A stretch of DNA of 64,000 nucleotides from Deltaproteobacteria bacterium (lineage in GTDB: Bacteria > UBA10199 > JACPAL01 > JACOUP01). The position numbers were made by a program, and so were the translations under genes. Shown piece after piece: positions 18,841-30,440 of the stretch (positions are counted from its first letter, which is position 1; every line of letters starts with the position of its first letter). The notes under the pieces were generated by a model. The model did not search any database. It was not told the DNA's origin and worked only from the letters and a program-made list of their open reading frames with translations. The DNA lies in the NCBI GenBank assembly GCA_016177765.1, contig JACOUP010000008.1, positions 900,864-964,863 on the forward strand, read 5' to 3'.

Positions 18841-20463
18841 TTATTCAAACCGTCGGGCCCAGATCCGATGGTCCCCGACCCTTTGTTCCCAGATCAGAAT
18901 GGTATGTCCCTCTGTATCGGTAGCTATCTTTGGCCAGACCGGTCTTTGCGCCGGGTTATCGGTCAGCGGGATGACCTCCCCCCAGCCGTTGGTTGCCTCA
19001 TAACGGCGGGAGATAATATTGGAACCGGCACCCCCCTCCAGGACTTCATGCCAGACCGCTAAGAGATTGCCCCCCTGGTCAACGGTCATCATTGGAGACC
19101 GGGCATTGGCTGGACGGTAGGGGAAACTGACAGGACCGGTGCAGAGTGCACCGAAGGGACAGGTACTGTTCATGACTTGTGAGATACCGTCGGCGCCGCT
19201 TTTTTGGGTCCAGAGGATCATGAATTGGGAGACAGGAGAGAGAATCATGACTGTGTCTGATCGGAGAACGTCTACTGCTGGTTCGCTCAACTGTCGAATC
19301 CCGGCAAATCCACCTCCGAATCCTGAAAAACGCCTCGCCTTGAGGGTATGCTTGCCTGTCGCCAGATCTTTTTCCTGCCAGGTCACCAGTCCGCTCCACT
19401 GGCTGTCCATGACGATCTTCGGGGATTCGGCATTGGTAGTATCTATCATCTCCGGTTCCCCCAGGCCCCAACGGGTCCCGTGATAAGAAGAATACCAGAG
19501 CCTCCTAATTTTATCGGGGTCATTGTCTCGGTCTCCCGGACGGGCGTTCGGGTTGGATTGGCTCCAGATCACCAGTGCCTTGCCGTCATGGACGACGATG
19601 GAGGCATCGCGAATAGGGTCCATGGAAGTGGGGGAGACGAATTGGGTATCCTCCCAGCCCCTTTCTTTAAAAACACGGGCGCGAAGGCCGTAGGACGTTC
19701 GCGTCCGGCAATCCACCTGCCCACGAGGACACTTGTTTAACCCTTCCATATTCCAGACGACAACCGCTCTGTTCCCGGAAGGTTCCATGGAGATCTTCGG
19801 GTAGGTGGCATTTAGATCAACCCATCGGTCATCCGACGGGACATTTTGGTTGATAGTGAAAGCAGGTTCCCATCTCCCGGAGGATTTCAGATACCGCCTC
19901 CCCCTGATGTGAAACTGAGTGCCACTCTTTTCACTCCAGACGACGAAGGCATTGCCGTTGGCATCCATCGCGATCTTTGGACCTGGTTCAGGGATATCGC
20001 CTAAAGCGGGATTAGCAATGACCTCCGGGCCGCTCCAGCCGGAGCCGACGGTATAACGGTTGGCGACGACCTGAAATTGGAGGCCCCTTGCCGGCACGGT
20101 CCTCTTTTCCCGCCAGACGGCAATGCCGTTTCCGGCAGAGTCAGAGGCGATATCGGTGTAGTCAGCTCCTTGGGAGGAGGCTTGATCCAGAGGGATGGCA
20201 TCGGTCCAGATCCCTTTCGGTGCCTGTGGGTTTCCAGCATTGGCCGCCGGCAGGTCACCACCAGGGGCCGGTGGAGCCTCCCCCGGGTCAGCGCCATTCC
20301 CCGTCGCCTCCTGTTTGACATCGTCCCTTTTGGGGGGAGGCGGAGGGCCTCCCTCCTCTTCCTCTTTTTTAGAATCACACCCGAGGGTGGAGAAAAAAAT
20401 GGAGAGGAGACCGATCAAAAGGATTGTTCGGGTGCGCTGATTTCTTGTCCCAAAAACCGTCAT
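18841..20463 (-). CDS. Putative eight-repeat beta-propeller lipoprotein
   Basis: 540 residues. Signal sequence IGLLSIFFSTLGC ends in a lipobox, followed by an acidic and Pro-rich linker (about 60 residues). The rest shows eight spaced repeats of a Asp-x-x-Gly-Asn-x-x-x-x-x-Trp type, e.g. DSAGNGIAVWRE, DANGNAFVVWSE, EPSGNRAVVVWN, DQGGNLLAVWHE and DTEGHTILIWEQ, spaced about 45-60 residues. This pattern suggests a beta-propeller on the cell surface. There are no catalytic Asp boxes of sialidases. Function unknown. It is convergent with the giant gene, 14 bases apart, and divergent from the PBP gene. Confidence 0.8.
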   Translation of the reverse strand: MTVFGTRNQRTRTILLIGLLSIFFSTLGCDSKKEEEEGGPPPPPKRDDVKQEATGNGADPGEAPPAPGGDLPAANAGNPQAPKGIWTDAIPLDQASSQGADYTDIASDSAGNGIAVWREKRTVPARGLQFQVVANRYTVGSGWSGPEVIANPALGDIPEPGPKIAMDANGNAFVVWSEKSGTQFHIRGRRYLKSSGRWEPAFTINQNVPSDDRWVDLNATYPKISMEPSGNRAVVVWNMEGLNKCPRGQVDCRTRTSYGLRARVFKERGWEDTQFVSPTSMDPIRDASIVVHDGKALVIWSQSNPNARPGDRDNDPDKIRRLWYSSYHGTRWGLGEPEMIDTTNAESPKIVMDSQWSGLVTWQEKDLATGKHTLKARRFSGFGGGFAGIRQLSEPAVDVLRSDTVMILSPVSQFMILWTQKSGADGISQVMNSTCPFGALCTGPVSFPYRPANARSPMMTVDQGGNLLAVWHEVLEGGAGSNIISRRYEATNGWGEVIPLTDNPAQRPVWPKIATDTEGHTILIWEQRVGDHRIWARRFE

Positions 20464-23494: not shown

Positions 23495-24004
23495 TCAGGG
23501 AGCCAGGGAGAAACGGATTGCGAGCCTGATCGGTTTCTCGTAGGGGGGAAATGGGGCGGCGCGGCGGATCGTCTCCAACGCTTCTTCATCCAACAGCCGG
23601 TATGATGATGATTTTTCAAGGGAGAGGAGGCTCACTTTTCCGGAACGATCGATGGAAAAGCTCACCGAAGTAACCCCTTCCTGGCCCAGTTGCCTGGCTT
23701 GGGCCGGGTAGCGTTTGGTCTGTTCGATTTTTTTTCGAATCTCAGCAAGGACCAGGTCAGCTCCATTTTCTTCCCCTGCTCCCGGCGGCAACCGTTCAGG
23801 TAACCTGGCTGCGTCAGACAGTCCTCGCCCCCTCCGTGATCCCCCTGAGACCTCAGAACTGTCAGTAGAGGCGATGGTGATAATCTCCACTCCTCCTTTT
23901 GCAGGGGAAAGAGGAGAGAAAAGTTGCGAGAGCCCCCAGAGAGAGAGTATCAACAGATGAAGACCGACGGAAAGTGCCAAGAAAAGCCGGCTTTTCACGG
24001 GCAA
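23495..24004 (-). CDS. tonB: TonB-family energy transducer
   Basis: 169 residues: an N-terminal membrane anchor (LFLALSVGLHLLILSLWGL), a short linker and a C-terminal TonB domain with KRYPAQARQLGQEGVTSVSFSID, SSYRLLDEEALETIRRAAPF. The linker is short and lacks the long Pro-Lys repeats of E. coli TonB. It would couple the proton-motive force to the BtuB receptor encoded in the same operon. ExbB and ExbD are not in the window. Start is TTG at 24004 or GTG at 23998, three to nine bases after the previous stop. Last gene of the riboswitch operon. Confidence 0.9.
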   Translation of the reverse strand: MPVKSRLFLALSVGLHLLILSLWGLSQLFSPLSPAKGGVEIITIASTDSSEVSGGSRRGRGLSDAARLPERLPPGAGEENGADLVLAEIRKKIEQTKRYPAQARQLGQEGVTSVSFSIDRSGKVSLLSLEKSSSYRLLDEEALETIRRAAPFPPYEKPIRLAIRFSLAP

Positions 24005-24007
24005 GCC

Positions 24008-24535
24008 TTAAGAAGCAACCGACAGAGGTTCTTTCAAAATATTGAATTTTCGCTCAGCGAGGGCAAAACCACCAAAGAGGAGCGTGACATAAAGGGCATC
24101 CCCGACGAGGGTATTCGGAAAGAACGGGATGGCGGCGATGTAACAGGCGGTGAGCCCGGCTACCGTCTTGGGGTAGATCGGTTGAAAGGCCCAGACCCCA
24201 AAATTGGTAACGATGAAAAATAAAATGGAACTGGCCAGAGTCGATCCGGCTACCGGGAGCCACTTTCTTTGGTCTTTCAGCCGGAAACCAAGCCCCAAGA
24301 CAAGAAGATAGGCCAGGTAGACGACGGGGAGATCCGGGTAGAAACCGATCAGGAGATCACTGAGAAGGAGCGCCCCAAAAGTGACCAGGAGGGCTGTTCT
24401 CTTTTTGTCAAAACAGGCGCCGCCAAAAAGGGCGACCGCCACAATCGGCGCAAAATTGGCTGGATGGGGGATGAGTCGCGTCAAGGCAACGGCAAAAACC
24501 ATTCCTACCAGGACAAGAAATCGGTTCATCTTCAT
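24008..24535 (-). CDS. Small integral membrane protein, candidate B12 permease component
   Basis: 175 residues with about five or six membrane segments: LVLVGMVFAVALTRLI, FAPIVAVALFGGACF, LLVTFGALLLSDLLIGF, VYLAYLLVLGLGF and two more near the C terminus. It resembles the DUF6580-type membrane proteins; a size of 170-190 residues and six segments is also that of ECF-transporter substrate-binding (S) components. A GGAGG site precedes the ATG. Encoded between the surface lipoproteins and TonB in the cobalamin operon, with no btuCD nearby, it is a reasonable candidate for inner-membrane passage of cobalamin. That is inference; no ECF ATPase is seen here. Confidence 0.85.
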   Translation of the reverse strand: MKMNRFLVLVGMVFAVALTRLIPHPANFAPIVAVALFGGACFDKKRTALLVTFGALLLSDLLIGFYPDLPVVYLAYLLVLGLGFRLKDQRKWLPVAGSTLASSILFFIVTNFGVWAFQPIYPKTVAGLTACYIAAIPFFPNTLVGDALYVTLLFGGFALAERKFNILKEPLSVAS

Positions 24536-24590
24536 AAAACCTCCTGACTCGAAGCTTACCCTCTACTGGGATACGGTTAAAATCGCAATG

Positions 24591-25652
24591 CTATTTTTTA
24601 ATGCCATTCACCACCGCCACCGCATCCAGATCAAACCCCAAAACTCCCGAAGAGACGCTGTCGCTACAATGGGCCGGGTCGTTGTAAAAGGCACAGCCGT
24701 TAATATCGACGATCCGGATGAAACGGGCCTGGCAGAGGCCGATATCGGCAAGATCATAGGCATCCCCACCGGCCACCGTCGGGTCGGTCGGGCTGATGTT
24801 GTTTCTGTCCGGATTGGCGTAGACCGGTTGACCGCCGGCGCATCCTTTAAAATCAGGAAAGGTGGGAGAACAGGGGAAAGGGTGCCAGTCGTTCCCGTCG
24901 GCCGAGGCGAAAACCTGAGCCGGTTCAAAAAAACCGGAAAATGAATTTTCAAAAACGACAAAATCGGGGCCGGGGCCGTCCACCGGAACAAAATCGGTAA
25001 ATTCTAAAATGATTTCGCCGCCAAGACCGAGAGAGAAGACATCAAAACCGCCTGGGGCATTGCCGGCACCGTGTGGAGGGCCGAGGACGATCTCCGGCAG
25101 GAGTTCCTCATGGAATCCCCCTTTCCGGCCGATGCTGTAGGAAACCAGACGATCGGCAAAAGGGGCCGTCTCGTCCGGCGGTTCCTCCGGTGGCAGGCAG
25201 TTATTGATCGGCACTGTATTCGGGAGAGAGGCTGATCCGGAAACGGAAACCGATTGGGGGAGAATCGTGATTCCGGTTTTTCCCCGGATCTCTTCTTTCC
25301 CTTCTACCCAGGCAGTTACTTCAGCGGTTCCTGTTTGAAGGGCATGGATCACACCGGTCTCTCCCACCTCGACAATGGCTGGATCGGAAGAGATCCAGAG
25401 AATTTTTTCTTTAAAAGTATTGAGAGGGTTGGTGAACTGTTTTTGGACCTTGGGGACAACCTGGTCACCGCTAAACCGAAGCTCAGCGGTCAGCGGATAC
25501 GCCTTTTCCTCCTCCAGGGTCACTGCCGAGGGTTGGATTGTAATCGTCTCCAAACTCTTCCAGGGACCGGGATCAAAAAGAGACGGTTCCGTTGCGCCAT
25601 TGCCGCAGGCGGTGAAAAAAAGAATCAGGAGGTGACAAAGGTTTTTTTTCAT
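24591..25652 (-). CDS. Surface lipoprotein with Big2-like and beta-sandwich domains
   Basis: 353 residues. Lipoprotein signal LCHLLILFFTAC. Residues about 35-130 look like a bacterial Ig-like (Big2) domain: ITIQPSAVTLEEEKAYPL, then WISSDPAIVEVGETGVI, ALQTGTAEVTAW. The rest is a beta-sandwich beginning LVSYSIGRKGGFHEELLP, with GGEIILEFTDF, PDFVVFENSFSG, VFASADGNDWHPFPC and GFDLDAVAVVNG. The style of this second domain recalls surface proteins next to beta-propellers in Bacteroidetes vitamin B12 loci; that comparison is from memory. Its ATG overlaps the stop of the preceding propeller gene (ATGA). Probably an accessory B12-binding or scaffold lipoprotein. Confidence 0.8.
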   Translation of the reverse strand: MKKNLCHLLILFFTACGNGATEPSLFDPGPWKSLETITIQPSAVTLEEEKAYPLTAELRFSGDQVVPKVQKQFTNPLNTFKEKILWISSDPAIVEVGETGVIHALQTGTAEVTAWVEGKEEIRGKTGITILPQSVSVSGSASLPNTVPINNCLPPEEPPDETAPFADRLVSYSIGRKGGFHEELLPEIVLGPPHGAGNAPGGFDVFSLGLGGEIILEFTDFVPVDGPGPDFVVFENSFSGFFEPAQVFASADGNDWHPFPCSPTFPDFKGCAGGQPVYANPDRNNISPTDPTVAGGDAYDLADIGLCQARFIRIVDINGCAFYNDPAHCSDSVSSGVLGFDLDAVAVVNGIKK

Positions 25653-26887
25653 GGGCGGTTAAAAAAGGTGATGGCGACCGGCGGTGGACCGACTGAAATC
25701 GGTCCCGCCACCGGAGCCTCGGTTTCGGCATCCAGGAGGAAAACCCCCCCGTTCGCCGGATCGCTGTCTCCCACAATCAGGAGATCGCCCAAAAGGGCGA
25801 TATCCGGGATGTAAGCGGCACTTTGATAAACTGTCTTGAAGGGTGCGGCGGGTCCGGCATCCGGATCAAACCGGACAACACTTGTTTCAAAGCGATTGCC
25901 GTCACGATAACTCCCGACAACGACATACCCCACTTTTGTGTTTAATTCGATATCGGCCGGTGCCCCGCCGAGCTGGTTGTCTGATATCAGGATGCCGCGT
26001 GAATTCAAGGATTGTGTATCCACAACCTCGATCCCCCCATAAGGACTTGTATTGTTGAAAAAATCGGCAAGGGAGACAAAAATCTTTTTACGAGAGGGGG
26101 AGTATTTTATGTCGAAAGGATTGCGACCGGAAAGACGGATTACCTTTTCCACTTTACCGGTTGTAGGATTGATCACAAGAATTTTCCCTTCCGTTGTCAC
26201 CTTAAAATCCTCGGCGAGGTCTTGAATAGAGACAAACAGTTTCCCATTGATCCACAAAATACGGTCGGCCCGGGCGAGCGGTTCTCCATCGGAGTCGGCG
26301 TAAGGGGTGAGGTCGATCGTTTGAGTGATTATTCCCGTTTGTGGGTTGACAACCAGAAGGTCGTCGACGGTGAACGTTGAATTGTTCGCCTCCGGTTCGT
26401 AGAGGGTGATGTAGGCGGTGGTTGGATTGAGGACCAGAATGTCGTGCGGATCCGTCCCGCGGCCGACCGAAAATTGAGAAATTGTTTTGTACCCCTGTTT
26501 TGGGTCGACCACCTGAATATTATCCTGTCCCTTCCGGTTGACGATATAAAGGAGGTTGTTAAAAGAGCGGACGACCGCATCCGTGTGGGTGGTTCCCAGA
26601 TTTGGACTCACCTGGGGAGTCTCTTCGAGTGTGAGTGTTGCATAGGTCCCGATCGTTTGGAAATCGGATCCCAGGACAAAGGCGGTGTTCCCCTGCGGGT
26701 TGTTGACGTCGGCCGAAAAAATCGGGTTGGGAGAGTCGCTCGGCGTGGGGGCGGGACCTGTCTCTTCGGTGACTGACCCGCAACCAGCGATGGAGGAAAG
26801 GAAAAACAAAATAAGAACTAACGCCCCCCGGCCCCCTCTTACACTAAGAGGGGGGGATTGATGGACATGGTGAGCCCGTCGAACCAT
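25649..26887 (-). CDS. Beta-propeller lipoprotein, BtuG-like candidate (second copy)
   Basis: 413 residues with lipoprotein signal VLILFFLSSIAGCGS. The mature part is a YncE-like/DUF5074-like propeller with repeats such as LLYIVNRKGQDNIQVVDP, TAYITLYEPE, DLLVVNPQTGIITQTIDL, ILVINPTTGKVEKVIRLSG, GGIEVVDTQSL and FLLDAETEAPVAGP. In Bacteroides, BtuG is a seven-bladed surface propeller that holds B12 and sits on BtuB. Here the gene lies directly after btuB and shares its stop (TGATG overlap) under the same riboswitch. The N-terminal residues MVRRAHHVH come from repeat family B. B12 binding is inferred from context, not shown. Confidence 0.85.
   Translation of the reverse strand: MVRRAHHVHQSPPLSVRGGRGALVLILFFLSSIAGCGSVTEETGPAPTPSDSPNPIFSADVNNPQGNTAFVLGSDFQTIGTYATLTLEETPQVSPNLGTTHTDAVVRSFNNLLYIVNRKGQDNIQVVDPKQGYKTISQFSVGRGTDPHDILVLNPTTAYITLYEPEANNSTFTVDDLLVVNPQTGIITQTIDLTPYADSDGEPLARADRILWINGKLFVSIQDLAEDFKVTTEGKILVINPTTGKVEKVIRLSGRNPFDIKYSPSRKKIFVSLADFFNNTSPYGGIEVVDTQSLNSRGILISDNQLGGAPADIELNTKVGYVVVGSYRDGNRFETSVVRFDPDAGPAAPFKTVYQSAAYIPDIALLGDLLIVGDSDPANGGVFLLDAETEAPVAGPISVGPPPVAITFFNRP
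26867..26887 (-). repeat. Repeat family B half element supplying a start codon
   Basis: On the minus strand ATGGTTCGACGGGCTCACCAT, differing at one base from 22984-23004. Its first bases are the ATG of the second propeller gene and overlap the btuB stop. Confidence 0.75.
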
Positions 26888-28890
26888 CAATTTTTCATCT
26901 CCAATTTTCCAAAAAATCCCCTTCCCGGGAGGGGAAATCCAACAATATCAACCGTCTGGTCGTTCAAGACGTTTTTCACCTCGAACGCCGCTGAAAAATA
27001 TTTAAGAAAACGGGCCTCTGTTCCGACATTCCAAAATATCCGGTGGTTTACCTTACGGATATTTTGCGTATCCAGGAAGTTGGCATCGATAAAATTCAGG
27101 TCAGAAAAAAAACGGGCCCAGTGCCATTGATAATCAGTCTTTGCCGATAATTCATGGATCGGTCTCCCCGGCAGGAGGAGGTCCTGGGTGGCTGGATTCC
27201 CGCTGACATCCTTGGCCTGTTCATAGGTATAATTGAGAGTGAGGGTCAGCGGCCGGATCGGTTTTATTTGAGCGACCAACTCCATCCCCTGAATCCTGGC
27301 CCTTCCCAGATTTTGGGCCTGGACGGTGTATTGGGATGTTTGCAACATCTGGATCAGATCGCGGATCTCGTTTTGAAAATAGGAGATCTCAAAGTGCCAT
27401 CTTTCTTTTGTCCACAAGAGGCCAAGGTCGAAGTTGACCGATTTTTCAGGCTGGAGGTCCGGGTTGCCGACAAAAAAACCGCGGTCCCCGAACAATTCCG
27501 AAAAACTGGGGGCGCGGTAAGAACGGCCGCCATTGGCCTTGAAGGCAAGACCTGAGGAAAAGGGTGTGCCACCCGAGGGTGGTTCACCCAAGGGTGAAGC
27601 ACCCAGCGACAGTTTGACCCCCAGTTTTCCGCCGAGGAGGTGGAGATTATTTTCGTTATTGAAAATATTTTCCATCCGGAAGGAGGGAAGAAGCGTCAGT
27701 TGTCCATTCAAAAGCCGGATTTCATCCTCGACAACCAACCCGATACTATCCCTCCGGCTGGAAGCGTCAGAACCGGGGGTGCTCTGCCTGTTTTCCGGGA
27801 GGAACTGTTCCCCTTGATAAGAGAGGGTGTTCATCGCCTTGTGATGATTGCCGAGTGGAATCATTGCCCTGGTTTTCAGACCGTAGAGAAAACTGTCATC
27901 GTCGTTATCCTGCCGGCCGAGACCGATCTCCCCCTGGGGATCGGAAAATTGGCTCTTGGTGTAACCGAAGGAAGGGATGAAAGAGAGGGCCAGGGGTGTG
28001 CCACCCAGGGGGGAATCAAAGAGGTTTTCTTGGGTTAATTCCAATTGCGTCAGCGACCTCGTCGTGGCGAGACTAGCGGTTTCCGAGGTGAGGGTGCCGA
28101 GACCCGGGACCCCCCTGTCTTCCCGGAAAAAATTTTCGTGAATCTGGAGATGCCAACCGTGACCCAAACTACCGTTCCAGTGGGTCAGAAAGGAATGACG
28201 GTTGAAGCTGTTGTTTTTTCGGGAGCGGGTCTGGTCATCCGAGGCATTGAAGGGGGTTCCGTTATCATCCAGAAATTGAAAGTCGCCATCACTGTGCTGA
28301 AAATGATACCCGGCCGAACTACCCCAGGAGCCAACAGGGATCGCCCCAAAAACGCCTGCACCCGCACTGTTCCAGGATCCGTAAGAACTGTCGAAGGCCC
28401 ATTGTGGCTTCTGATGAAACCGTTTGGTGGTGATGGCGACGACTCCGCCGATCGCCGAGGTTTCATAAAAACTGGGGGTCTGACCGCGGTAGATTTCAAT
28501 TTTTTCAATTTGTGAAAGGGGGATGCTTGCGATGTTCACCGCTCCCCCTTGCGCCGCATTGATCGGGACCCCGTCCAGGTAAATTTGCACCTGCTCTGAA
28601 GTGGAGCCGCGGATCGAGAGGGTGGCAAAATCATCGAGCCCGCCATAACGCCGGACCTGCAGGCCGACTTCTTCGCTGAGAACCTCCGGCAGGGTGAGGG
28701 TCCTTCCTTCTAGATCGCGGGAGGTTAGGACATTGGAGAAGGCCGCCCCGTCGAGGCGGCCTTCCCGTTGTTTGTCCGTGACCTGGATCTCCCCAAGATC
28801 CCCTAATTCACGACCCTCCAAGGGTGATTCACCCAAGGGAGTGACGAGTGTCGTCATCAGGACTCCGATTAAAAACGCACCCGTTTTCAC
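26887..28890 (-). CDS. btuB: TonB-dependent outer-membrane receptor, BtuB-like
   Basis: 667 residues. Signal sequence and a TonB box region (EIQVTD) precede the plug domain: LPEVLSEEVGLQVRRYGG, ATLSIRGSTSEQVQIYLDGV, IEKIEIYRGQTPSFYETSAIGG. A 22-strand barrel follows and ends in FFGKLEMKN. Small size and plug sequence fit the BtuB group (cobalamin uptake), and the operon is headed by a cobalamin riboswitch. The GTG start overlaps the stop of the first propeller gene. The coding sequence carries three sets of the 15-bp palindrome (27560, 27993, 28820), located in loops or the N-terminal leader, so extra residues such as LGASPLGEPPSGG are probably tolerated there. Confidence 0.92.
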   Translation of the reverse strand: MKTGAFLIGVLMTTLVTPLGESPLEGRELGDLGEIQVTDKQREGRLDGAAFSNVLTSRDLEGRTLTLPEVLSEEVGLQVRRYGGLDDFATLSIRGSTSEQVQIYLDGVPINAAQGGAVNIASIPLSQIEKIEIYRGQTPSFYETSAIGGVVAITTKRFHQKPQWAFDSSYGSWNSAGAGVFGAIPVGSWGSSAGYHFQHSDGDFQFLDDNGTPFNASDDQTRSRKNNSFNRHSFLTHWNGSLGHGWHLQIHENFFREDRGVPGLGTLTSETASLATTRSLTQLELTQENLFDSPLGGTPLALSFIPSFGYTKSQFSDPQGEIGLGRQDNDDDSFLYGLKTRAMIPLGNHHKAMNTLSYQGEQFLPENRQSTPGSDASSRRDSIGLVVEDEIRLLNGQLTLLPSFRMENIFNNENNLHLLGGKLGVKLSLGASPLGEPPSGGTPFSSGLAFKANGGRSYRAPSFSELFGDRGFFVGNPDLQPEKSVNFDLGLLWTKERWHFEISYFQNEIRDLIQMLQTSQYTVQAQNLGRARIQGMELVAQIKPIRPLTLTLNYTYEQAKDVSGNPATQDLLLPGRPIHELSAKTDYQWHWARFFSDLNFIDANFLDTQNIRKVNHRIFWNVGTEARFLKYFSAAFEVKNVLNDQTVDIVGFPLPGRGFFGKLEMKN
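27560..27604 (+). repeat. 15-bp palindromic unit x3 in btuB
   Basis: AAGGGTGTGCCACCC, GAGGGTGGTTCACCC and AAGGGTGAAGCACCC in tandem, 45 bases with no frame change. They encode a Gly/Pro-rich segment, LGASPLGEPPSGGTP, in a likely surface loop. Confidence 0.8.
27993..28006 (+). repeat. Single 15-bp-type palindrome in btuB
   Basis: GGGGTGTGCCACCC followed by AGGGGGG; one diverged unit within the same receptor gene. Confidence 0.55.
28820..28834 (+). repeat. 15-bp palindromic unit near the btuB start
   Basis: AAGGGTGATTCACCC followed by AAGGGA, an exact consensus unit. It lies in the region between signal peptide and TonB box. Confidence 0.8.
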
Positions 28891-30200
28891 TGTTCATAGG
28901 TGGCGATGGAGGCGGGTGGCAGTCCTCCGGCTAGCTTGTCGTGGAGGACAGCCCCATTCGGACCGATCAGGAGAACGCCGGGAAATCCCGGATCGCGGTC
29001 TCCCACAAGCAACCCGGAGACCCTCTCCACCCATTCGGTATCCTGAATGGAGCCGGCGCTTTCATAAACGGCGGTGGCGCCGCCGATCGGGTTGAGAGGA
29101 AAACGAAAGATGCGCGAACGATAGGCACTGGTGACCGGATCAATGAAACTGGCGGTGACAAAACCGGAATTAGAGGAGGTCTCAATATCCCCCGGTGCTC
29201 CCCCCAGGTCACGGTCGTCAATGGCGATCCCTTGAGAGATCCCGGAGGCGATCGAGACCGCCTCGACCCCGCCGAGAGAATCGTCCGGATTAAAGGTTCC
29301 GGCATTTCCAACCAGGACCTGATCCGCTGTGGCGGCCAGGGTGAAAGGATTGGCCCCCGTCAGCGGGGTCACCTGGTCGACCCTGTCGGTTGTGGTGTCG
29401 ATCCAGACCAGTTTGCCGTTTTTATCGGCGGTAAAACCGTTCAAGTCTTGCAAGGCAACAACGGCAAAGCCTCTCCCCCGTCTTTCGACATAAACCATCG
29501 CCGCCGCCTCGGCGGGAGAACCGTTTTCGGCATAAGAGGAAAGATCAATTCTTGTCGTGATCTCACCGGAACGGGGGTTCATGACAAGCAGGTCACCCGG
29601 TTCGGTTGGGTTATAAAGGGAGACATAGGCCTTTTCGCCGGAAAAAATCAGAACATCCTGCGGGTTGGTCCCTTCTCCCATCGGGTATTCTGTGGATTGA
29701 CCGGTTTGGAGATCCACGCACTGGACAGTGTCTCGCCCCAGACGATTGACCACGCAGAGCGGAAGCCCACCAGCCACCGAGCTTCTGATAACCGCATCAC
29801 TGTGTGTCGGAAAGGTGGGGGAATCCTGATAGACAAAGGGTGATTCACCCAGACCTCCCAACTCCAGAAGCCGGAGCGTCCCGGCCGGGTTTGTGAAATC
29901 GGCCTCCAGAACGGCAGCGTACGGCTTTTTGGAAACCGGCGTGCCTGGTCCAGCATCTTTTCCTTCGGTTGGACCCCCGTCGGTCCCGTGAGGACCATCG
30001 ACAACGACATCGACGGATCCTTCGTCATTGGTACACCCGGCCGCCATAAGGGCAATCGCACACCCCCCGACGGCTCCTTTCCAGGCACCTGCACCGGTAC
30101 CAACACCGGGCCAAACAACGGTCCCGGCACCTGCACCGAGAATACCCCCGATGACACCGCCGGCACCACACACGACTGTTGCTTTGAGTCCTTCGGACAT
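28887..30200 (-). CDS. Beta-propeller lipoprotein, BtuG-like candidate (first gene of B12 operon)
   Basis: About 437 residues from the ATG at 30200, which follows GGGAGGATC. The N terminus is unusual: a long Gly-rich hydrophobic stretch (GGVIGGILGAGAGTVVW, then GGCAIALMAAGC) with a lipobox-like Cys near residue 56. An Asp/Gly-rich linker follows. The propeller repeats resemble those of the second copy: LCVVNRLGRDTVQCVDLQTG, KAYVSLYNPTEPGDLLVMNP, KLVWIDTTTDRVDQV, LGGVEAVSIASG. It lies directly downstream of the cobalamin riboswitch and overlaps btuB. A 15-bp palindrome is at 29836. Surface capture of B12 or cobinamide is the working idea; the ligand is not shown by sequence. Confidence 0.85.
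   Translation of the reverse strand: MSEGLKATVVCGAGGVIGGILGAGAGTVVWPGVGTGAGAWKGAVGGCAIALMAAGCTNDEGSVDVVVDGPHGTDGGPTEGKDAGPGTPVSKKPYAAVLEADFTNPAGTLRLLELGGLGESPFVYQDSPTFPTHSDAVIRSSVAGGLPLCVVNRLGRDTVQCVDLQTGQSTEYPMGEGTNPQDVLIFSGEKAYVSLYNPTEPGDLLVMNPRSGEITTRIDLSSYAENGSPAEAAAMVYVERRGRGFAVVALQDLNGFTADKNGKLVWIDTTTDRVDQVTPLTGANPFTLAATADQVLVGNAGTFNPDDSLGGVEAVSIASGISQGIAIDDRDLGGAPGDIETSSNSGFVTASFIDPVTSAYRSRIFRFPLNPIGGATAVYESAGSIQDTEWVERVSGLLVGDRDPGFPGVLLIGPNGAVLHDKLAGGLPPASIATYEQ
29836..29850 (+). repeat. 15-bp palindromic unit in the first propeller gene
   Basis: AAGGGTGATTCACCC, exact consensus, in the N-terminal blade (LGESPFVYQD in the protein). Confidence 0.8.
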
Positions 30201-30249
30201 CTGATCCTCCCTCTCTCCGCGGAGAGCTAATAAAAAGGTTAGTGAATGC

Positions 30250-30440
30250 AAAAGGTAAGGTTTCCTGACTTGGGGCTCCCCCGAGCGCCGGCTTGCCTTC
30301 CCATCCGCCGGAGGCGGACAGTGACTGACGCCGTGACTCTACAAACCCCTTACAGTGGCGGGACCGTGCCGGACTTTCACCGGCTTCCCTCCACCCCTTG
30401 CGCTGGAAAAGAACAACCTGCAAGAAGCGCCCTACCAAGA
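30250..30440 (-). ncRNA. Cobalamin riboswitch
   Basis: On the minus strand the conserved core reads GGGAAGCCGGTGAAAGTCC, then CGGTCCCGCCACTGTAA, the hallmark of AdoCbl-type riboswitches. It ends in GTCAGGAAACCTTACC, the usual 3' part of the P1/P2 region. Between them lies a peripheral stem, TCCGCC-tcc-GGCGGA. The element starts about 240 bases upstream of the first gene of the B12 operon, so cobalamin should turn the operon off. No clear intrinsic terminator lies before the gene, and the ribosome site follows closely, so control at translation is plausible. Confidence 0.95.

Follow-up and report, generated by a model that had tools for sequence, protein, structure and literature searches.

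A cobalamin riboswitch operon outside Bacteroidetes joins BtuB-, BtuG- and BtuH-like genes with DUF6580, a candidate solitary importer of vitamin B12

The stretch of DNA described herein (the window; 64,000 nucleotides of contig JACOUP010000008.1, positions 900,864 to 964,863) comes from a Deltaproteobacteria bacterium and carries, on its minus strand between 23495 and 30436, an operon for the uptake of vitamin B12 (cobalamin). This is likely a cobalamin-repressed scavenging operon, in which two BtuG-like propellers and a BtuH-like lipoprotein feed a BtuB-like receptor, TonB energizes the receptor, and a small membrane protein of the family DUF6580 carries the corrinoid across the inner membrane alone. 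With somewhat less confidence, we favor the view that DUF6580 is an unrecognized family of solitary S-component-like B12 importers which has replaced BtuFCD on more than one occasion, including at least one replacement at the same position in the operon. Outside Bacteroidetes, the family would fill the inner-membrane step behind BtuB–BtuG–BtuH-type capture, with the corrinoid possibly held by Cys131 or His24. Only about half of the bacteria auxotrophic for B12 are predicted to have BtuCDF (PMC6072759). Auxotrophs lacking it need some inner-membrane route, for which DUF6580 is a concrete candidate.

The riboswitch aptamer (RF00174; 30237-30436, minus strand) was detected by cmscan over the full-length model (1-189) with 83.7 bits and an E-value of 3.9e-19, passing the gathering cut-off of 31.5 bits. 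It is the single match to RF00174 across the whole genome, which measures 1.92 Mb and is 96.5% complete. On its 3' side lie six open reading frames (ORFs), all on the minus strand: propeller A, the BtuB-like receptor, propeller B, a lipoprotein with a Big_2 domain, DUF6580, and TonB. According to their coordinates, the junctions A/BtuB, BtuB/B, and B/Big_2 are overlaps of 4 nucleotides, DUF6580 and TonB are separated by 3 nucleotides, and a gap of 55 nucleotides precedes DUF6580 on its 5' side. The original prediction, made from the sequence, had described a cobalamin riboswitch followed by six tightly packed genes with four junctions that overlap or touch, and this layout is borne out by three overlaps and one short gap. 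The gene set is far beyond chance, because it recurs as an operon in relatives.

It had further been stated that no btuF or btuCD is present, and this holds genome-wide: PF01497 (BtuF-type binding protein) has no match in this genome, and a hidden BtuC was considered and rejected, the sole weak FecCD match being an ABC-3 metal permease. DUF6580 was found in 14 of 60 related genomes. A strong FecCD/BtuC match occurs in none of these 14 versus 36 of the 46 others (Fisher p 1.1e-7), a comparison that counts related genomes and whose p-value overstates their independence, which tempers the argument. Counted by family within the class, BtuC is found in 0/4 families with DUF6580 and in 16/17 of the others, and the window's own order includes two families with DUF6580 and two with BtuC. 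EcfT (PF02361) is absent from all 14 DUF6580 genomes. Gene order points in the same direction. The operon of the relative G013 (L038) runs riboswitch, btuB, propeller, BtuH-like gene, BtuF, BtuC, BtuD, and TonB, and its BtuF–BtuC–BtuD block sits between the BtuH-like gene and TonB, the position held here by DUF6580. Outside the class, the order is riboswitch, DUF6580, btuB, and a propeller-like ORF in G061, and riboswitch, btuB, propeller, and DUF6580 in G054 and G060.

The gene itself (24008-24535, minus strand) matches PF20221 with an E-value of 4.6e-55 and 186.7 bits, against a gathering cut-off of 27. The original prediction had listed it as a small membrane protein, correctly as to its presence, and had overlooked that it is the likely replacement of BtuFCD. 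A single-sequence search of the PDB with DUF6580 returned nothing. Its AlphaFold2 (AF2) model, with a predicted local distance difference test score (pLDDT) of 92.7, consists of six helices, and the six best PDB matches of this model in Foldseek are S-components of energy-coupling factor (ECF) transporters (FolT, ThiT, RibU, and kin), with probabilities of 0.93-0.99 and template modeling (TM) scores up to 0.64. The fold is predicted to be ECF S-component-like. Both termini are predicted inside from their charges, and 22 of the 27 nearly invariant residues, including His24, Asp60, and Cys131, lie in the predicted periplasmic half, the two halves having been assigned by hand from the AF2 model. 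Cys131, at the start of helix 6, is invariant in 18/18 DUF6580 sequences, and His24 and Asp60 are invariant as well. The family had no match in the plasmid collection, and a literature search found no paper naming it.

The natural point of reference is BtuM, a B12 transporter that works as a solitary, S-component-like protein of six helices and has an invariant cobalt-binding cysteine near the periplasmic surface (PMC6072759). DUF6580 is probably a solitary B12 importer that is BtuM-like in function, without a detectable sequence relation to it. Several results weigh against this assignment: the Foldseek E-values of the DUF6580 model are weak (0.15 to 0.84), BtuM falls outside its top 50 matches, and a PDB search with the DUF6580 profile at E ≤ 10 gave no sequence match, BtuM included. 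Membership of DUF6580 in BtuM by sequence was rejected on this last result. In addition, btuB is not beside the DUF6580 copies of G016, G043, and G067, nor beside one of the two copies in G060, so the family may transport other substrates besides B12. These distant copies favor an alternative in which the operon is an outer-membrane-only B12 system, DUF6580 has another role, such as the uptake of a lower-base precursor or some other ligand, and a different carrier brings cobalamin through the inner membrane. The four genomes of the class in which both DUF6580 and a strong BtuC match are lacking, and in which a third route may exist, point the same way. Such an arrangement is nonetheless unlikely, given that DUF6580 lies inside a riboswitch operon, that DUF6580 and BtuC are mutually exclusive across four families, that DUF6580 occupies the syntenic position of BtuFCD, and that it is the first gene after a cobalamin riboswitch in another lineage. 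B12 import by DUF6580 remains the preferred reading.

Some of the related genomes deserve a separate mention. The four class members just mentioned are G006, G031, G042, and G045; three of them have a riboswitch match, one of which scores under the family cut-off, and the four may use a third inner-membrane route, or part of their sequence may be missing. Behind the second DUF6580 copy of G060 come a PF01497 binding-protein gene and a Diphthami_syn_2 (PP-loop) gene (L218:8280-10560). This genome has no FecCD match, and the binding protein is apparently paired with DUF6580, not with an ABC permease.

On the outer-membrane side, the operon encodes propeller lipoprotein B (25649-26890, minus strand; lipobox IAGC at Cys37) and its paralogue, propeller lipoprotein A (28887-30200, minus strand; ATG start, putative lipobox MAAGC), which share 38% identity. 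Single-sequence PDB searches with either propeller found nothing, with no BtuG at E ≤ 1. When an alignment of 25 members of the propeller family was run as a profile against 177,635 PDB sequences, eight BtuG structures ranked at the top (E 3.6e-6 to 4e-5), and propellers other than BtuG, E. coli YncE included, started at 2e-4. The propellers are called BtuG-like here because their relation to BtuG is visible by profile, without a single-sequence match. Structure prediction, which the original prediction had proposed for both propellers, was run for propeller B and gave an AF2 model with a pLDDT of 86.3. The best Foldseek match of this model among 350,542 chains is BtuG1 from the BtuB1G1 complex (8blw_B; 7e-12, TMq 0.64); the runner-up stands at 1.4e-9, and XusB, a receptor-associated surface lipoprotein, ranks third. 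The family profile and the modeled fold of propeller B together make a BtuG-like nature of the propellers well supported. In a maximum-likelihood tree, propeller A joins the second propellers of the same order with a support of 93/91. The tree suggests an old duplication behind A and B, but its branches here are long. Operons with a pair of propeller genes, in some cases arranged in tandem, occur in other genomes as well (L047:9987-12419; L125; L078), so duplication recurs.

The receptor gene between the propellers (26887-28890, minus strand; GTG start, with the 4-nucleotide overlaps at both ends) encodes a TonB-dependent receptor with barrel (PF00593, 3.3e-37) and plug (PF07715, 2e-17), which in the PDB matches E. 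coli BtuB structures best (9e-27). Its score on TIGR01779 is 159.5 bits, under the BtuB equivalog cut-off of 599.7, and the receptors of relatives likewise fall under this cut-off, with the MxcH and hemin models close behind; for this reason, these receptors are filed as BtuB-like. The low score, together with the fact that no conservation has been demonstrated in the propellers for BtuG2 pocket residues such as Trp194 and Trp272, speaks against a B12 system. It could be argued from the score, and from the high rank of XusB and YncE in the fold search, that the propellers are YncE- or XusB-like and serve a receptor for another ligand, such as pyrroloquinoline quinone (PQQ) or a siderophore. 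This is very improbable: BtuG ranks first both by sequence profile and by fold, the best PDB matches of the receptor are BtuB, most loci have a cobalamin riboswitch, and BtuFCD-type or BtuH-like genes adjoin it.

The third lipoprotein of the operon (24591-25652, minus strand; Cys16) has an N-terminal Big_2 immunoglobulin (Ig)-like domain at residues 37-116 (PF02368, 3.1e-8) and a C-terminal domain at residues 151-352 (24597-25202, minus strand) with an invariant F234-E235-N236. A whole-protein profile was swamped by Ig-like domains and was abandoned, and the C-domain was aligned alone. The profile built from 31 aligned C-domains found only two PDB matches at E ≤ 10, namely residues 432-498 of 8blw_B, which are the H-domain of BtuG1 (E 0.001), and 7biz_A, which is BtuH2 (7BIZ; E 0.04). 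Asn236, invariant in 31/31 C-domains, aligns to chain position 299 of 7biz_A, and Phe238, present in 25/31, to position 301. With an inferred offset of 100, derived from construct residues 103-593 within the 501-residue 7biz_A chain, the two would correspond to BtuH2 Asn399 and Phe401, which touch the phosphate and lower ligand of B12 (PMC8941943). The profile–BtuH2 alignment spans about 62-75 positions and stops short of the B12 contacts Tyr510, Trp511, Trp577, and His476. By this profile evidence, the protein is BtuH-like, with a C-domain related to the B12-binding domain of BtuH. The original prediction, which had listed an extra surface lipoprotein, was right that the protein exists; given this relation, the protein is not an oddity. 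The BtuH-like protein had no match in the plasmid collection. Residues 162-304 of the C-domain also match the NCBIfam LIC_13355 lipoprotein family of Leptospira (E 1.8e-6, under the family cut-off), and this family may be BtuH-like too.

The location of these lipoproteins in the cell allows for a further alternative, in which they are periplasmic and hand B12 to DUF6580 as substitutes for BtuF, rather than capping BtuB at the surface. In its favor, the genome has no BtuF, and the surface-lipoprotein export signal of Bacteroidetes is not known to apply in this lineage, a point that also counts against the surface capture preferred here. Yet relatives that have BtuF (e.g., G013) carry BtuG-like and BtuH-like genes too, so these do not replace it, and in Bacteroides both BtuG and BtuH are found at the cell surface (PMC6143338, PMC10404256). 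A periplasmic role is accordingly quite unlikely, even more so than an outer-membrane-only system, and capture at the outer membrane is retained.

BtuG has been stated to be exclusive to Bacteroidetes, and lipoprotein-capped receptors seemingly exclusive to that phylum (PMC6143338, PMC10404256). The pairing of BtuG-like propeller and BtuB-like receptor is found here in many phyla, at variance with this published exclusivity. Propeller motifs on their own, scanned against about 85,000 species genomes, gave 154 relatives, of which the best 80 named ones were used for locus counts. The labels of these 80 include Deltaproteobacteria, Latescibacterota, Eisenbacteria, Krumholzibacteriota, Gemmatimonadota, Myxococcota, and Binatia, and none is Bacteroidetes; the relatives within the class are labeled Deltaproteobacteria, with a few Bdellovibrio or Nitrospira, and again none Bacteroidetes. 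An adjacent BtuB-like receptor gene on the same strand was found at 71/80 propeller loci, and 23/80 have a BtuH-like gene in addition to the receptor. With a covariance model trained on operon riboswitches, a cobalamin riboswitch was found at 65/80 loci; at least 5 of the 80 contigs had contributed to the model, and many of the loci without a match are truncated by a contig end. Rfam scans run independently on 28 loci from relatives found the riboswitch in 17. The claim of the original prediction that a comparable BtuB–propeller system exists outside Bacteroidetes is well supported by the BtuG-first ranking in profile and modeled fold and by this linkage across phyla, and its suggestion to survey related genomes for propeller, btuB, and riboswitch is answered by their recurrence.

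The cell has uses for the cofactor. Its genome encodes B12-dependent MetH, methylmalonyl-CoA mutase, and a lysine 5,6-aminomutase subunit. Of the B12 biosynthesis genes, only amidases of the CbiA/CobB/CobQ type were searched for, and none was found in the genome. A hidden cobyrinate/cobyrate amidase was rejected, as the only GATase_3 match resembles HisH and is flanked by his genes. B12 auxotrophy is likely. In the proposed mechanism, the riboswitch would sense cobalamin and turn the operon off, and cobalamin shortage would relieve the repression. The two propellers and the BtuH-like lipoprotein, with its Ig-like stalk and putative B12-binding domain, would then catch corrinoids at the outer membrane and, in complex with the BtuB-like receptor, pass them on to it. 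Passage through the receptor would be powered by the TonB encoded by the last gene of the operon (23495-24004, minus strand; PF03544, 7.3e-17; TIGR01352 above cut-off). DUF6580 would take the corrinoid at the periplasmic face and move it inward alone, in the manner ascribed to BtuM, perhaps by the toppling proposed for S-components. Trapping of B12 inside would depend on the cell's own B12 use.

Further features of the window concern the leader of the operon and its surroundings. The program-called TTG start of propeller A (30251; ORF 28887-30251) falls within the aptamer, and a GGGAGG precedes ATG 30200 at 30206-30211 (minus strand; read from the sequence as the likely ribosome-binding site). 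On these two grounds, ATG 30200 is the better start. A palindrome, CTCTCCGCGGAGAG, lies at 30226-30213, immediately before GGGAGG. An expression-platform hairpin was considered and found unsupported, the local fold having a z-score of 0.21 and nothing unusual. Promoter and terminator scans were uninformative, with promoter-like matches at chance level. Near the operon and outside it, 18841-20463 (minus strand) encodes a 540-residue lipoprotein without a Pfam family, which is repetitive and possibly propeller-like. Among sister operons, that of G004, a sister-order member which keeps BtuFCD, has a cobalamin adenosyltransferase gene between riboswitch and btuB (L054:5466-6065), and that of G003 has a DUF3047 gene directly 3' of tonB (L034:4421-5077).

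Among known systems, BtuB1G1, BtuB2G2, and BtuB3G3 of Bacteroides thetaiotaomicron are the closest in layout, with a propeller lipoprotein gene beside that of a TonB-dependent receptor in a riboswitch operon. The present operon differs in that two propellers flank one receptor and in its host outside Bacteroidetes; propeller B and BtuG1 share about 17% identity in the structural alignment. The BtuH-like lipoprotein resembles BtuH2 and the H-domain of BtuG1 in the order of its parts, an Ig-like N-terminus followed by a putative C-terminal binding domain, whereas BtuH2 has three PKD domains in place of the single Big_2 domain found here. Secreted B12-binding proteins of the DUF4465/BtuJ kind occur next to propellers and TonB-dependent receptors, including in organisms outside Bacteroidetes (PMC13398666), but none of the 31 C-domains has a Pfam DUF4465 match, and this identity was rejected. 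At the inner membrane, BtuFCD of the E. coli type stands at the position of DUF6580 in sister operons (G013, L038) and is absent from this genome. BtuM of Thiobacillus denitrificans and, by prediction, DUF6580 are both small, with six helices, termini predicted on the inner side, an S-component-like fold, and an invariant cysteine on the periplasmic side, and both occur in genomes without EcfT and BtuCDF. Cys80 of BtuM, however, is in loop L3 and Cys131 of DUF6580 at the start of helix 6, and the genomic links differ as well: BtuM genes are mostly linked to btuR (PMC6072759), and DUF6580 here to btuB–btuG–btuH–tonB. Because no sequence relation is detectable and the cysteine lies elsewhere, DUF6580 is likened to BtuM rather than classified as BtuM.

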